The position numbers were made by a program, and so were the translations under genes. From assembly GCA_040882465.1 (NCBI GenBank), contig JBBEBG010000033.1:1-64000 (forward strand): a stretch of DNA of 64,000 nt. Reading direction: 5' to 3'. Under the pieces are notes generated by a model. The model ran no database searches and was not told the DNA's origin. It saw nothing but the letters and a program-made list of their open reading frames with translations. The DNA comes from Gemmatimonadota bacterium. Lineage in GTDB: Bacteria; Gemmatimonadota; Gemmatimonadetes; Longimicrobiales; Gaopeijiaceae. Below, piece after piece: positions 182-6,601 of this stretch (positions are counted from its first letter, which is position 1; every line of letters starts with the position of its first letter).

Positions 182-198
182 TTGAGAACGGTTCTCAA
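182..198. promoter_or_regulatory. Fur-like 7-1-7 palindromic operator candidate
   Basis: TTGAGAAC-G-GTTCTCAA is a perfect inverted repeat with 8-bp arms around one central base. Its core TGAGAAC-n-GTTCTCA resembles the 7-1-7 layout of Fur boxes (TGAtAAT-n-ATTaTCA). It sits immediately downstream of a promoter-like pair and upstream of an operon encoding two imelysins and a di-heme protein, a gene set associated with iron in other bacteria. The position would allow repression. That a Fur-family protein binds it is inference. Confidence 0.4.
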
Positions 199-282
199 GA
201 TCAGGTCCGGTTTCACGGAACGCCACCTGTACGCCGGGATCGCGTGGACCCCCTTCGGGAGTCGGTGTCCGCGGCCAAATAG

Positions 283-522
283 ACTCGACCACACGATGCG
301 ACACGACACAAGCTCAACCTCCTTTGGAACGCGCCGGTTCTGGCACTCACCCAGGAGGACGACCTCGGCCCTGCCGAGGTGAGCTTCCTCATGGGCGACC
401 GCGTCGCTGACTACCGGTTCCAGGATGCGGCGCGAAAACTCGTGGAGCGTGGGGCCCAGCGGATCGTCGTCGTCCCGCTCCTCGCCTCCCGCTTCAGCGG
501 CCACTATGACCACCGTTCGCGA
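283..522 (+). pseudogene. Remnant of a CbiX/sirohydrochlorin-chelatase-like gene fused in frame to the imelysin ORF
   Basis: The frame upstream of the imelysin signal peptide is open from 283 (TAG at 280-282), with GTG at 379. From about 376 it encodes a stretch with ARKLVERGAQRIVVVPLLAS followed by SGHYDHR, which resembles the C-terminal part of each CbiX-type chelatase repeat (a conserved G-A-x-R-I-V-V-V-P segment followed by an S-x-H-Y region). The similarity ends abruptly where the imelysin lipoprotein signal begins at 523. I read it as the tail of a lost chelatase gene joined by deletion, or an assembly artefact near the contig end. A true fusion is unlikely, because it would bury the lipoprotein signal peptide. 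Confidence 0.4.
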
Positions 523-1695
523 ATGATGAAGAAGATGCGCCGTGGGCTGGGCGGCGTGGGAATCCTGCTCGCGGCGGCGGGGTGCGGCCGAGGCGAGGCG
601 GAGCTCGAAGCGATGAAGGGCGACGTCGTGGCCACGTACGCGGAGATCGTGCACGCGTCCTACGAGGACTCGTTCCGCGCAGTGGAGGAGATGGCGGCCG
701 CGATCGCGGTCCTGCTCGCGGCGCCGTCGGAGGAATCGTTGGCGGCAGCGCGCATCGCCTGGCTGGCGGCTCGCGAGCCGTACGGGCAGACGGAGGCGTA
801 CCGCTTCTACGGCGGACCGATCGACGCGGCCGGCGGGCCCGAGACGCTCCTGAACGCCTGGCCTCTCGACGAGGGGTACGTGGATTACGTAGAGGGGGCC
901 CCCGAGAGCGGGATCGTGAATGACGTGGCGGCTTATCCGAAGCTCGACCGGGAGCTCCTCGTCTTACTGAACGAGGCGGGGGCGGAGGAGAATCTGAGCG
1001 TGGGCTTCCACGCGATCGAGTTCCTGCTCTGGGGGCAAGACCTCTTCGCAGACGGGCCAGGGCGCCGGCCCTACACGGACTACGTCGCGGGAGTCGGGCG
1101 GAACGCCGAACGACGGATCGAATACCTGCGCATCGTCACGGAGCTCCAGGTGGAGAAGATGGAGGGGCTCGTGGCCGAGTGGGCACCGAACGATGCCACG
1201 AACTACCGCACCTCGTTCCTTGCGCTCCCTCGGGACGAGGCCGTGCGCCGAATCCTGGTCGGGATCGGGGTTCTCGCAAAGTCCGAGCTCGCCGGAGAGC
1301 GGATGTTCACGGCGTACGACAACCAGGACCAGGAGGACGAGCACTCCTGCTTCTCGGACAATACCCACCGCGACATCGCGGCGAACGCGCTCGGCTTGAT
1401 GAACGTTCTCCAGGGCCACTACCGGCGGTCCGACGGGAGCACGATCTCGGGCGTCGGCATGACCGCGCTCTTCAGAGAAGTGGACTCCGAGCTCGCGGAT
1501 GAGGTGGAGGCGCTCGCCACGCGGAGCCTGAGGGCAGTCGAGGCGATTCCCGTGCCCTTCGACCAGGCGATCGTGGATCCTGACTCGCGGCCCGCGGTAC
1601 TCGATGCGGTCTATGCCCTCATGGATCTCGGTGACCGCATCGCGGAAGGGGGGAGCGCGCTCGGTCTCACGATCAACACGGCGCTCCCGGGGTGA
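523..1695 (+). CDS. Imelysin-family (peptidase M75-like) lipoprotein, GxHxxE type
   Basis: This 390-residue protein starts at MMKKMRR, followed by a hydrophobic segment and a lipobox ending in Cys21 (L-A-A-A-G-C), so it is probably an outer-membrane or periplasmic-face lipoprotein. The imelysin hallmark GxHxxE is present as G-F-H-A-I-E with H163 and E166. Imelysin/IrpA/EfeO-like proteins are all-helical and linked to iron uptake or iron regulation; protease activity is doubtful for many of them. I chose 523 because the longer reading frame (GTG at 379) adds an unrelated chelatase-like segment before the signal peptide. No clear Shine-Dalgarno is visible. The stop at 1693-1695 is 3 nt before the next gene, so it heads an operon with the di-heme protein, a second imelysin and an HTTM protein. 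Confidence 0.85.
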   Translation: MMKKMRRGLGGVGILLAAAGCGRGEAELEAMKGDVVATYAEIVHASYEDSFRAVEEMAAAIAVLLAAPSEESLAAARIAWLAAREPYGQTEAYRFYGGPIDAAGGPETLLNAWPLDEGYVDYVEGAPESGIVNDVAAYPKLDRELLVLLNEAGAEENLSVGFHAIEFLLWGQDLFADGPGRRPYTDYVAGVGRNAERRIEYLRIVTELQVEKMEGLVAEWAPNDATNYRTSFLALPRDEAVRRILVGIGVLAKSELAGERMFTAYDNQDQEDEHSCFSDNTHRDIAANALGLMNVLQGHYRRSDGSTISGVGMTALFREVDSELADEVEALATRSLRAVEAIPVPFDQAIVDPDSRPAVLDAVYALMDLGDRIAEGGSALGLTINTALPG

Positions 1696-1698
1696 GTC

Positions 1699-3078
<1,380 letters not shown>

Positions 3079-3081
3079 GCC

Positions 3082-4194
3082 ATGCCCGGCACCTTTCCCG
3101 TTTTCGCGAGCACGGTGAGGCTTGGCCGCCTGGCATTGGCCCTGGCCCTCCTTTCTGTCCCGACCGCCTGTCGAGGACCGGATTTCGACCGCGGCGCGAT
3201 GCTGCACGCGATCGGGACGACGGTCATCCTCCCCGGCCAGGAGGCGCTTGTCCTCGAAGCCGAGCGGCTCGACGCGGCGGCCGCGGCCTTCGCGGCGGCG
3301 CCCACGGAAGAAGCGCTTCTCGAGCTTCGAGATCGGTGGCTCGCGACCGAGCTCGCGTGGAAGGGGGTCCAGCTCTTCCAGTTCGAGGGCCTCCTCATCC
3401 TGCACAACGCGATCGAGAAGCGCCCGGCGCGGGATGACTTCATCGAAGAGACCATCACGGCGCTGAACAGGGGTGCGCTCGTAGCGCTCGATACCGGGTT
3501 CATCGAAAGCGCGGGGGCCACCTCGAAGGGGCTCGGGGCGATCGAGCACCTGATCTTTCCGGCCGGGCTCGATCCGAGCGAAGTCGTGGCCGGCTTCGTG
3601 ATGCCCGGGCGTGGCGCCTATCTGCGCGCGACAGCCGAGAATCTCGTCGCGAAGACCCGGGAGTTGCAGGCGCATTGGGCGCCGGGTGAGGGCGGCTACC
3701 TCACCACCTTCGTCGCAAACGATTCGGATGGCGCGGATATCCGAGGCTCGGTGAGCCGCCTCGCCAACCGGATCATCGAGGCCCATGAGATCGCGACGCA
3801 GCATGGGCTGGGACGCCCGATGGGGCGCACGATGGATGGAGTTCCCCATCCCGAGGAAGTGGAGGCTCCATTGAGCGGGCATTCGCTCGAGCTCCTGGTC
3901 GCAACCGTGGAGACCCTTCGCCGAACGATGGACGCCGGCGTCGACGACTATCTGGACCACCTCGACCTCTCCGGAAACGCGGAGCCCCTCTCGGCTCGAA
4001 TCGCGGCGCAATATGCGGTCGCCCTGAACGCGCTCCGGGAAATCGAGGGCCCCCTGGAGGTCGCGGTGATCGCACGTCCCGCGCAAGTCGAGACCGCCTA
4101 CGAAGAGATGCGCGCGCTCATCGTCCTGCTCAAGACCGAGATGGCCGCCCAACTCGGGATCACGGTCACCTTCAGCGACACCGACGGGGACTGA
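3082..4194 (+). CDS. Second imelysin-family lipoprotein, variant motif
   Basis: This is a 370-residue protein with a lipoprotein-type signal (A-L-L-S-V-P-T-A-C, Cys near residue 30). It has the helical imelysin composition. The GxHxxE region instead reads K-G-L-G-A-I-E-H-L-I-F, as in the imelysin branch with K-G-L-x-A-x-E, so the Glu is kept but the preceding motif His is absent. It starts at ATG 3 nt after the DHOR stop and ends 2 nt before the HTTM gene. A pair of one GxHxxE and one K-G-L-x-A-x-E imelysin flanking a di-heme protein suggests two non-redundant partners of one complex. Substrate and activity are unknown. Confidence 0.82.
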   Translation: MPGTFPVFASTVRLGRLALALALLSVPTACRGPDFDRGAMLHAIGTTVILPGQEALVLEAERLDAAAAAFAAAPTEEALLELRDRWLATELAWKGVQLFQFEGLLILHNAIEKRPARDDFIEETITALNRGALVALDTGFIESAGATSKGLGAIEHLIFPAGLDPSEVVAGFVMPGRGAYLRATAENLVAKTRELQAHWAPGEGGYLTTFVANDSDGADIRGSVSRLANRIIEAHEIATQHGLGRPMGRTMDGVPHPEEVEAPLSGHSLELLVATVETLRRTMDAGVDDYLDHLDLSGNAEPLSARIAAQYAVALNALREIEGPLEVAVIARPAQVETAYEEMRALIVLLKTEMAAQLGITVTFSDTDGD

Positions 4195-4196
4195 GA

Positions 4197-5693
4197 ATGG
4201 AGTGGCGTGGGGGGGCCCTGGCGAAGGTGGCCTCCGCCTGGAACGGGCACCCTGTGTCTCCCCTCCCCCTCGTCGCCTTCCGACTCGTCTTCGGACTTCT
4301 GGCGTTCGCCGGAGCCGTTCGATTCGTCGCGAAGGGATGGGTCGAGACGTTGTATCTTGAACCCGAGTTCCTCTTCACGTACGCGTACCTCGATTGGATT
4401 CGCCCCCTTCCGGGGAATTGGCTCTATCTCGTTTTCGGCGTCCAGGCGGTATCGGCTCTCCTGATCGCGGCGGGGAGACTGTATCGCCCGGCCGCTGTCG
4501 CCTATTTCGTCTCCTTCACCTATGTGGAGCTCCTCGACAAGACGACGTACCTGAATCACTACGTCTTGGTCTCGTTCGTCGCCTTCCTCCTGATCTTTCT
4601 TCCCCTGGATCGGTGGGGGAGGCTCGAGTGGGGAGGAAATGGTCGGGGCCCCGCGCGCGAGCCCGGAGGAGAGGGGAGAGCGAAGCCGCGAGAGGACGAA
4701 GCGCGTTCGCGAAGGGCGGCGCGGGCGGCGCCCGGCTGGATCGCGAACGCGCTCCGCATCCAGATCGGGATCGTCTACCTCTTCGCGGGACTCGCCAAGC
4801 TGAACCCCGATTGGCTCTTCTCGGCGCTTCCACTCCGGATCTGGCTTTCGTCCCGGACGGGGACTCCCCTCGTCGGGCCCCTATTCGATGAGCCATGGGT
4901 GGCCATTGCGATGAGCTGGGGCGGCGCGGCTTTCGATCTCTCCATTCCGTTTCTTCTCTCGTGGAAGAGGACGCGTCCGTGGGCCTACCTCGCCGTCGTG
5001 GGTTTCCATGGCGCGACGGCCCTTCTTTTCCCGATCGGAATGTTTCCCTGGATCATGATCGGGGCGACCCTCGTCTTTTTCGAAGGGGACGAGCTCGCAC
5101 GGGTCGCACGAGTCTGGCGGAGGGCGGAGGGGATGCGGGACGCGCCGGCTCGGAACCGCGCCTGCCTCACGCCGGAAGTGCGCCTCATTCCTTGCGTTCG
5201 TCCGATCCTCGCCGCTTTTTTCGCGATTCAGCTTTTCCTCCCGCTCCGGCACCTCGCCTATCCGGGGGACGTGCTCTGGACCGAGGAGGGATATCGGTTT
5301 TCCTGGCGCGTCATGCTTCTGGAAAAGGCGGGAATGGTCCTCTACCGGGTGACCGATCCCGCTTCGGGGCGATCGTGGGACGTGAGTCCAGGGGATCATC
5401 TCACGATGCAGCAGGCGAAGCAGATGGCTTTCCAGCCCGACATGATCCTCGACTTCGCGCACCACCTGGCGGAGCGGCTCGCCGACGTAGGAATGTCCGG
5501 AGTGGAAATCCGAGCCGACGCTTACGTGAGCGTGAATGGGCGCCCCGGCGCCCTGCTCGTGGATCCGCGGGTGGATCTGGCGCGCATGCCGCGAGGTCTC
5601 GCACCGAAGGGCTGGATTCTTCCCGCGCCGGGCGCCCGGCCTGATCTCGTCATAGATTCGGAGGACAAGCTTTCCGGCGCCCTTCCGCTCTGA
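4197..5693 (+). CDS. HTTM-domain (vitamin K-dependent gamma-carboxylase-like) membrane protein
   Basis: The 498-residue protein has several hydrophobic helices in its first 360 residues. It contains signatures of the HTTM/VKGC-like family, such as an early segment around V-A-F-R-L-V-F-G, a Y-L-N-H-Y-V-L loop between helices and a later G-I-V-Y-L-F-A-G-L-A-K-L-N-P-D-W-L segment. A charged insert, rich in Arg, Glu and Gly, lies at about residues 143-180. Bacterial members are mostly uncharacterised. The gene is 2 nt after the second imelysin and ends the four-gene operon. HTTM genes commonly sit near imelysin genes in other phyla (my recollection), so it is likely the inner-membrane component of the same system. 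Carboxylase activity should not be assumed. Confidence 0.8.
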   Translation: MEWRGGALAKVASAWNGHPVSPLPLVAFRLVFGLLAFAGAVRFVAKGWVETLYLEPEFLFTYAYLDWIRPLPGNWLYLVFGVQAVSALLIAAGRLYRPAAVAYFVSFTYVELLDKTTYLNHYVLVSFVAFLLIFLPLDRWGRLEWGGNGRGPAREPGGEGRAKPREDEARSRRAARAAPGWIANALRIQIGIVYLFAGLAKLNPDWLFSALPLRIWLSSRTGTPLVGPLFDEPWVAIAMSWGGAAFDLSIPFLLSWKRTRPWAYLAVVGFHGATALLFPIGMFPWIMIGATLVFFEGDELARVARVWRRAEGMRDAPARNRACLTPEVRLIPCVRPILAAFFAIQLFLPLRHLAYPGDVLWTEEGYRFSWRVMLLEKAGMVLYRVTDPASGRSWDVSPGDHLTMQQAKQMAFQPDMILDFAHHLAERLADVGMSGVEIRADAYVSVNGRPGALLVDPRVDLARMPRGLAPKGWILPAPGARPDLVIDSEDKLSGALPL

Positions 5694-5704: not shown

Positions 5705-6601
5705 GTGCCCGCGCTCGACCCGCATGATCCCCCGCAGTGGGTGGACAGGACTGCGTACCCGTTCGAGAGCCGTTGGTTGGAGCTTCCGAGCGGGTACCGG
5801 ATGCACTACGTGGACCAGGGGGAAGGGGAGACCCTCCTCTTCGTGCACGGCACTCCGACCTGGTCCTTCGAGTGGCGCCGGATCATCCAGGCGCTCGCGC
5901 CGCACGCTCGGTGCGTGGCACCGGACCTCTTGGGATTCGGCCTCTCGGGGAGGCCGCGGGACGGGGCGTACACTCCGGAATGGCACGCGGAGAACCTTGC
6001 GCACTTCGTCCACCGGCTCGGCCTCGATCACCTCACCCTCGTCGTGCATGACTACGGGGGCCCGATCGGGCTTCCGCTCGCCCTCCAGAATCCGGGACAC
6101 GTCCGCCGCCTCGTCGTGATGAACACCTTCATGTGGAGTCTGAAGGGAGACAAGCGCGTGGAGCGCGCCTCGAAGCTCGTCGGCGGATCGCTCGGGAGAC
6201 TCCTTTACCGCCGACTGAACTTCTCGCTCAAAGTCATCATGCCGAGCGCCTTCGCGGACAAGAAAAAGCTCACGCCCGAGCTCCATTCACAGTATCTCGC
6301 CCCCTTTCCGGACGCCTGGTCGAGGGGCGCGGTGCTCTGGCCGCTCGCGCACGCGCTCCTCGGGTCGGACGCCTTCTTCACGTCGCTTTGGGAGCGCCGT
6401 GAAGCTCTCAGGGCCTTTCCAGCCCTCGTGATCTGGGGCACGGAGGACCCGGCCTTTCCTCGCGATCACCTGAATCGGTGGAGGGAGGTCCTCCCGCATG
6501 CGCGCATCGCGGAGCTCCCGGTCGGTCACTGGCCCCAGGAGGAGGCTCCGGAAAAGGTCATTGCGGCGATGGAGGACTTCCTCGGGCTGGGACACGGATG
6601 A
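5705..6601 (+). CDS. Haloalkane-dehalogenase-like alpha/beta hydrolase
   Basis: The 298-residue protein starts with GTG 11 nt after the HTTM gene. It has H-G-T-P-T-W-S-F-E-W-R (oxyanion-hole region, compare H-G-N-P-T in dehalogenases) and V-V-H-D-Y-G-G, so the nucleophile is Asp116 rather than Ser. The catalytic His is in G-H-W-P-Q-E-E near residue 275, and the acid is probably in W-G-T-E-D-P. An Asp nucleophile in HD[WY]GG is typical of haloalkane dehalogenases and related epoxide-hydrolase-type enzymes. No signal peptide is visible, so it should be cytoplasmic. Substrate is unknown, and many such genes are annotated as dehalogenases without proof. Its stop is 10 nt before waaA. Confidence 0.8.
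   Translation: MPALDPHDPPQWVDRTAYPFESRWLELPSGYRMHYVDQGEGETLLFVHGTPTWSFEWRRIIQALAPHARCVAPDLLGFGLSGRPRDGAYTPEWHAENLAHFVHRLGLDHLTLVVHDYGGPIGLPLALQNPGHVRRLVVMNTFMWSLKGDKRVERASKLVGGSLGRLLYRRLNFSLKVIMPSAFADKKKLTPELHSQYLAPFPDAWSRGAVLWPLAHALLGSDAFFTSLWERREALRAFPALVIWGTEDPAFPRDHLNRWREVLPHARIAELPVGHWPQEEAPEKVIAAMEDFLGLGHG

Follow-up and report, generated by a model that had tools for sequence, protein, structure and literature searches.

A gamma-carboxylase homologue obligately paired with a histidine-less imelysin in a predicted Fur-regulated bacterial operon

The stretch of DNA analysed here (the window) comprises 64,000 nucleotides of a Gemmatimonadota genome (contig JBBEBG010000033.1) and carries near its start a cluster of four genes. 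These encode an imelysin lipoprotein (IML1), a di-heme oxidoreductase (DHOR), a second imelysin lacking the motif histidine (IML2) and a membrane protein (VKGC) homologous to the human vitamin K-dependent gamma-carboxylase, GGCX, the enzyme that activates blood-clotting factors. We find that the pairing of VKGCs of this kind (class I) with His-less imelysins of the IML2 type is obligate in genomes, and that this pair, not the four-gene order, is the unit kept in evolution. To our knowledge, no substrate or role has been described for the bacterial relatives of the vitamin K-dependent carboxylase. A predicted Fur-controlled, obligate partner in many phyla thus provides the first concrete, single named substrate candidate for these proteins. 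A complete scheme, in which a Fur-repressed iron operon uses VKGC and menaquinol to carboxylate IML2 and so to create a metal ligand, is set out below as a proposal whose merits we regard as evenly balanced.

Class I VKGCs and His-less imelysins form a conserved pair

Genome contigs were scanned with an alignment of VKGCs, a procedure that selects the best matches, and 80 loci were returned. An imelysin gene lies directly beside VKGC in 78 loci, the window and its neighbours included; 71 of these pairs are co-directional and the other seven, all from Chloroflexota, are convergent. An adjacent imelysin is lacking at contig ends (L010, L053), at L069 and beside two sets of divergent VKGCs (L003/L007, L004/L008). 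The paired loci belong to Bacteroidota, Balneolota, Rhodothermota, Chloroflexota, Myxococcota, Acidobacteriota, Deinococcota and Gemmatimonadota (seven or more phyla besides that of the window), as read from record titles, which may be wrong for metagenome-assembled genomes. One such genome titled Gammaproteobacteria (L010, JAHEKL010000035.1) was rejected as a proteobacterial example: a class-level search around this genome re-finds a match already known from the window's class, to which the genome appears to belong, and its label is likely wrong.

Since such a scan yields top matches only, 296 Bacteroidota genomes were also drawn evenly. VKGC is present in 69 of them and the imelysin domain (M75) in 71. 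Imelysins of the IPPA type, defined by a Pfam score below 170, occur in 62 of the 296, and VKGC accompanies them in every case (62/62). For 60 of the 80 VKGC genes in this set, an imelysin gene is no more than 5 kb away. The remaining 20 comprise three that score as class I and 17 low-scoring members of a second class (class II); for all three class I genes the imelysin of the genome sits elsewhere (contig edge in one). With the distant genes read in this way, the presence of class I VKGC matches that of an IPPA-type imelysin without exception, both being present in 62 genomes and neither in 234 (Fisher 2e-65, a value to be taken with the relatedness of the genomes, which are not 296 independent events). 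The pairwise distances of one partner correlate with those of the other (Mantel r 0.80), at median pairwise identities of 30% for the imelysin and 47% for VKGC, and class I VKGC makes up one side of a tree branch with an SH-aLRT value of 99. A natural fusion of imelysin and VKGC, sought as proof of contact, was not found.

The four-gene order on which the original prediction centred is kept only outside the Bacteroidota, where IML1-DHOR-IML2-VKGC is the usual arrangement and, in Chloroflexota, VKGC is convergent to IML1-DHOR-IML2. The typical Bacteroidota unit consists of a DUF4856 lipoprotein (55/86 loci), an imelysin, VKGC and a TonB receptor (64/86). Since DHOR and IML1 are missing from most Bacteroidota pairs, the four-gene order was rejected as the conserved unit. 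It is therefore one layout among several in which the conserved pair is found, and only IML2 plus VKGC is universal.

VKGC is a GGCX homologue with an intact predicted active site

VKGC (498 aa) matches the Pfam models HTTM (E 2e-69) and VKGC_lumenal_dom (E 2e-49), both well over the cut-off. Because the HTTM model covers mainly transmembrane helices, the assignment rests on the lumenal domain, the active-site residues and the fold. Residues 17-465 align to human GGCX structures in a single-sequence phmmer search (E 7e-38), and a profile of four VKGC sequences matches human GGCX with E 4e-71. When the AlphaFold2 model (pLDDT 88) was compared with known structures using Foldseek, 16 GGCX structures were the sole matches with E < 0.001; the best gave TM 0.76 and E 8e-23.

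In the human enzyme, Lys218 is the catalytic base, Asn159 and His160 bind the Glu substrate, and W223, F286, F294 and F299 form the naphthoquinone pocket (PMC12589487). The alignment places these residues at K201, N120, H121, W206, F270, F278 and F283 of VKGC, respectively, and all seven are invariant across 33 class I sequences. The position of human Tyr395 holds Y or F in 32 of the 33. In the quinone tunnel, class I has Thr for human N290 and nearly always Val for M401, whereas class II has the human residues. Judged by alignment and model, the fourth gene product is thus a full GGCX-type homologue with an intact predicted active site. The original prediction had named an HTTM/VKGC-like membrane protein of unknown chemistry; this says too little of the gene, whose intact active site of the gamma-carboxylase type went unrecognised there.

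A Fur-type operator precedes the operon

Position 182, where the range given in the original prediction starts, does not begin a gene; it opens a 17-bp sequence that is a perfect palindrome, TTGAGAACGGTTCTCAA. Its 15-bp core, TGAGAAN3TTCTCA, occurs at two places in the 3.53-Mb genome against 0.02 expected from base composition, and the sole other copy lies between a ferric-iron binding-protein gene and a TonB-receptor gene. Five genomic places match the 17-mer when at most two mismatches are allowed, one of them ahead of IML1. Two fall in the gap between the gene for a FutA/FbpA-type ferric-binding protein (PDB 6g7n, E 3e-111) and that for a TonB receptor, which is nearest to FecA and siderophore-receptor models, under their cut-offs. 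Another lies about 20 bp upstream of a second FutA/FbpA-type protein (PDB 2pt1, E 3e-114), followed by a permease gene, and one is non-palindromic and has no obvious iron gene nearby. The operator upstream of IML1 is retained in the relatives G276 (TTGAGAATGATTCTCAA) and G602 (TTGAGAATCATTCTCAA); both versions fit the general Fur box, TGAnAATnATTnTCA.

Bacteroidota operons were scored against the Fur box determined in Riemerella. A box with three mismatches or fewer is present in 29 of 58 operons of Bacteroidota and neighbours, while shuffled upstream regions give 0.1. Furthermore, the table of Fur-regulated genes in Riemerella includes VKGC, the imelysin, a TonB receptor and a hypothetical gene under the consecutive tags RAYM_09779-09794, with a ratio of 2.64 for VKGC in iron-poor relative to iron-rich wild type (PMC5609570). 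That table is the only co-mention of VKGC and imelysin found in the literature searched; discussion of the carboxylase was not found in the searched text of that article. A Fur-type operator upstream of the genes, common to other iron genes, places them in the predicted Fur regulon, and the operon is, by its iron-type operator, a putative Fur-repressed operon for iron acquisition in the envelope. The metal link suggested by the original prediction, with iron as the metal, is thus supported by the operator, both here and in related genomes, by the Bacteroidota Fur boxes and by the published Fur transcriptome.

Organization of the operon and its surroundings

The coordinates are collected in Table 1. 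As originally described, the four genes are separated by 2-3 nt: all lie on the plus strand, with spacings of 3, 3 and 2 nt, and a di-heme lipoprotein does stand between two different imelysins, one with and one without the motif His. IML1 combines the M75 domain with the motif GFHAIE (GxHxxE) at residue 161 and an export signal with lipobox AAGC, features of the M75 GxHxxE (ICMP/LruB) family. It matches ICMP (PDB 7xrx) with E 6e-65 and the NCBIfam LruB model with E 7e-39, under the cut-off of the model. DHOR carries CxxCH at residues 92 and 341 (CAGCH, CAACH) and the lipobox SSC; its residues 31-459 align to positions 8-499 of the Pfam profile, and two heme sites with a full domain identify it as a DHOR (DUF1111) protein. 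IML2 has GLGAIE at residue 150 in place of GxHxxE, the His being gone, and the lipobox PTAC. Its AlphaFold model (pLDDT 92), for which four plasmid-record rows were left out of the alignment, has 3pf0 as top Foldseek match (TM 0.71/0.82). An imelysin fold without the motif His is that of the IPPA (GxxxxE) type.

Table 1. Features of the operon in the window
Feature	Position	Strand	Basis
Fur-type operator, perfect 17-bp palindrome TTGAGAACGGTTCTCAA	182..198	.	about 325 bp ahead of IML1
IML1, lipoprotein of the imelysin family (M75), ICMP/LruB type, motif GxHxxE	523..1695	+	Pfam M75 E 3e-67
DHOR, di-heme oxidoreductase lipoprotein	1699..3078	+	Pfam DHOR E 2e-104, two CxxCH
IML2, imelysin lipoprotein without motif His, IPPA/PA4372 type	3082..4194	+	Pfam M75 E 5e-30; PDB 3pf0
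Acidic tail DTDGD of IML2 (residues 366-370)	4177..4191	+	codons; conserved in linked imelysins
VKGC, class I bacterial homologue of vitamin K-dependent gamma-carboxylase	4197..5693	+	Pfam HTTM and VKGC lumenal domain

The contig itself starts where the window does (G000:C33:1), so that the sequence further 5' of the operon is unreadable. Between the operator and IML1, at 301-520 on the plus strand and in frame with IML1, lies a fragment resembling CbiX, of the metal chelatase family (Pfam E 3e-4, slightly short of the curated cut-off). The relative G276 has no such insert, and the fragment is probably a relic or an effect of assembly at the contig end. At the other side, 11 nt 3' of VKGC, an a/b hydrolase gene (5705-6601) resembles haloalkane dehalogenases (NCBIfam PRK03204, E 1e-50, under the cut-off). 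Given the 11-nt gap, this gene is possibly co-transcribed with the operon.

Related operons and a second VKGC class

Most Bacteroidota imelysin-VKGC operons open with the DUF4856 lipoprotein (L041:7583-8689 and equivalents). This protein matches an FEA1-related lipoprotein model weakly (E 2e-5, under the cut-off) and may be an iron-binding partner. Variation is also found in the fourth slot of imelysin-DHOR-imelysin operons (L217-L222 compared with the window), which is taken by DUF1513 in annotated Proteobacteria and by VKGC in other phyla. The proteobacterial operons, known from plasmid records, run IML1-DHOR-IML2 and then DUF1513, with no VKGC annotated; functional replacement between DUF1513 and VKGC is possible. 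On a Phaeobacter plasmid (L218), the imelysin-DHOR-DUF1513 operon adjoins genes for HemP, a (2Fe-2S) protein and bacterioferritin.

The diverged class II VKGCs (L174-L191 of Bacteroidota, L007, L008) come without imelysin and keep the catalytic Lys, His and Asn. In ten Bacteroidota loci the class II gene directly follows or overlaps ribF, for riboflavin kinase/FAD synthetase. The idea that all bacterial VKGC/HTTM proteins form one functional group was rejected, as no class II gene has an imelysin for a neighbour in the loci examined.

Proposed mechanism and alternatives

We propose the following scheme as the most likely reading. IML1, DHOR (a c-type di-heme redox lipoprotein) and IML2 would pass on or reduce iron in the envelope. 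VKGC, presumably seated in the inner membrane and facing the periplasm, would use menaquinol, O2 and CO2 to place a carboxyl group on an acidic residue of IML2. The quinol would be made by the cell via MenD, present in the genome (E 3e-131) and belonging to the Men route to menaquinone; genes of the futalosine route were not found in this genome. The modified residue would be a malonate-type metal ligand resembling gamma-carboxyglutamate (Gla), by which IML2 would hold iron or hand it on. Candidate sites are the acidic C-terminal tail, DxDGD, which is predicted to be disordered, or lineage-specific Glu residues. The invariance of the Glu-pocket residues, together with the existence of one dedicated partner, argues for IML2 as the protein that VKGC may modify. 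Taken as a whole, Fur repression included, the scheme seems to us to have equal chances of being right and wrong. We are more tentative about the general claim that a menaquinone-dependent carboxylation exists in bacteria, whereby class I VKGCs would post-translationally furnish IPPA-type imelysins, as iron-handling lipoproteins, with Gla or, in the DxDGD tail, with beta-carboxyaspartate; this is possible, if somewhat short of probable.

The tail is strongly conserved in linked imelysins, with D370 in 81/81 and D366, D368 and G369 in 79/81 each, and the last four residues of IML2 (367-370) are predicted to be disordered (pLDDT below 50). Proteobacterial and Psychrobacter controls have A, E or S at the D366 position, a contrast confounded by phylogeny.

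Several observations speak against the carboxylation of IML2. The alignment contains no Glu column that is universal in VKGC-linked imelysins and absent from unlinked ones, and a fixed Glu as the Gla site was rejected on this ground: E261, found in 96% of Bacteroidota, is shared by most controls, and Bacteroidota mostly have Asp in place of E155. The DGD ending also recurs in proteobacterial imelysins that have no VKGC next to them, and only D366 sets the linked ones apart; the tail therefore predates VKGC or is independent of it, one Asp having been added in VKGC lineages. On the enzyme side, class I has Ala at human Lys217, Leu at N158 and mostly Gln or Met at R436. Homology to GGCX stops near human residue 503, leaving out the C-terminal half of the propeptide-binding region; VKGC therefore has no complete propeptide-binding domain and is filed here as a homologue with the catalytic core kept, not as a proven gamma-carboxylase. 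VKOR, considered as the partner for epoxide recycling, was rejected since it was found neither in this genome nor in seven of 11 genomes tested; the epoxide would therefore not be recycled by a known enzyme. The VKGC of Leptospira has been studied and reportedly shows altered activity. Finally, recombinant IPPA showed no effect of ferric ions in a thermofluor assay (PMC3143127).

Part of this evidence would suit a VKGC that oxidises or epoxidises menaquinol without carboxylating any protein. Iron held by IML2 would then be acted on directly, by the quinol chemistry or by the electrons of VKGC, much as in a ferric reductase. The quinone pocket and the Lys218 equivalent are invariant, the part of GGCX that recognises the substrate is gone, the partner has no universal Glu, a second redox protein (DHOR) is encoded in the same operon, and the quinone-tunnel changes are restricted to class I. 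Yet plain quinol oxidation has no need of the Glu-binding Asn159 and His160, which are invariant as well, nor of the Y or F at Tyr395, and we hold this explanation to be unlikely, though worth serious attention. VKGC might also act on another envelope partner (DHOR, IML1, or the DUF4856 lipoprotein or TonB receptor of Bacteroidota) or on a small carboxylate iron chelator, IML2 being merely co-regulated. The frequency of the DUF4856 and TonB-receptor genes in Bacteroidota operons is in line with this, and DHOR and IML1 each have several invariant Glu residues; these, however, are mostly present too in the VKGC-free proteobacterial operons. Moreover, DHOR and IML1 are missing from most Bacteroidota pairs, DUF4856 is not a recurrent neighbour in other phyla, and IML2 is the only partner found in every lineage. 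We therefore look on a different substrate as improbable.

It is harder still to see VKGC and imelysin as co-inherited neighbours in an iron-regulated island, with no biochemical interaction. Small operons are commonly transferred horizontally, and VKGC is patchy in the phylum of the window (5/298 genomes). Against this stand the perfect co-occurrence over 296 genomes, the persistence of the pair over at least seven phyla, with a median identity of about 30% among the imelysins, and its survival of changed gene orientation in Chloroflexota; co-inheritance alone appears very improbable.

If VKGC does carboxylate IML2, the clotting-factor chemistry of animals would have a bacterial counterpart in iron acquisition. 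The pairing makes the function of bacterial VKGC directly testable, with iron starvation as the condition, active-site mutants and a +44 Da shift. It also bears on the role of His-less imelysins and on the origin of GGCX chemistry. Imelysin-DHOR-imelysin iron operons, such as the Fur-type PA4370-PA4372, are already known (PMC3143127), as are bacterial VKGC/HTTM homologues. No paper describing a fixed, Fur-controlled pairing of the two, class I VKGC and His-less imelysin, was found in a search that covered few preprints and subscription journals.

Comparison with known systems

The EfeUOB system, whose EfeO has an imelysin-like domain, has the imelysin fold in common with IML2 (Foldseek matches 7wgu and 7q1g). 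Unlike EfeUOB, neither IML1 nor IML2 has a cupredoxin domain by Pfam, and no EfeU/Ftr1 permease is encoded downstream of the operon, where genes for the a/b hydrolase, a KdtA-like protein, a rhodanese and DUF4015 are found; the upstream side is off the contig. The Riemerella anatipestifer locus RAYM_09779-09794 resembles the window in its Fur-regulated VKGC and imelysin; it has in addition a TonB receptor and a hypothetical protein, and DHOR or IML1 are not listed alongside (PMC5609570).

Class II bacterial VKGCs are like class I in the Pfam lumenal domain and the catalytic Lys, His and Asn. They differ in falling outside the class I clade (SH-aLRT 99), in having no adjacent imelysin in the 19 loci read, and in keeping the human residues N and M in the quinone tunnel. 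With human GGCX, the VKGC of the window has in common the fold, the equivalents of Lys218, His160 and Asn159, and the naphthoquinone pocket. It lacks the arch domain and the C-terminal half of the propeptide-binding region, differs at K217 (Ala), N290 (Thr) and M401 (Val), and has no known Gla substrate.

The closest counterpart of the operon is PA4370-PA4373 of Pseudomonas aeruginosa (icmP-DHOR-imelysin), a Fur-regulated imelysin operon (PMC3143127) with the same IML1-DHOR-IML2 order, protein types and iron control. The difference lies in the fourth gene, which encodes DUF1513 in annotated alphaproteobacterial operons (a hypothetical protein in one) and a gamma-carboxylase homologue in the window.

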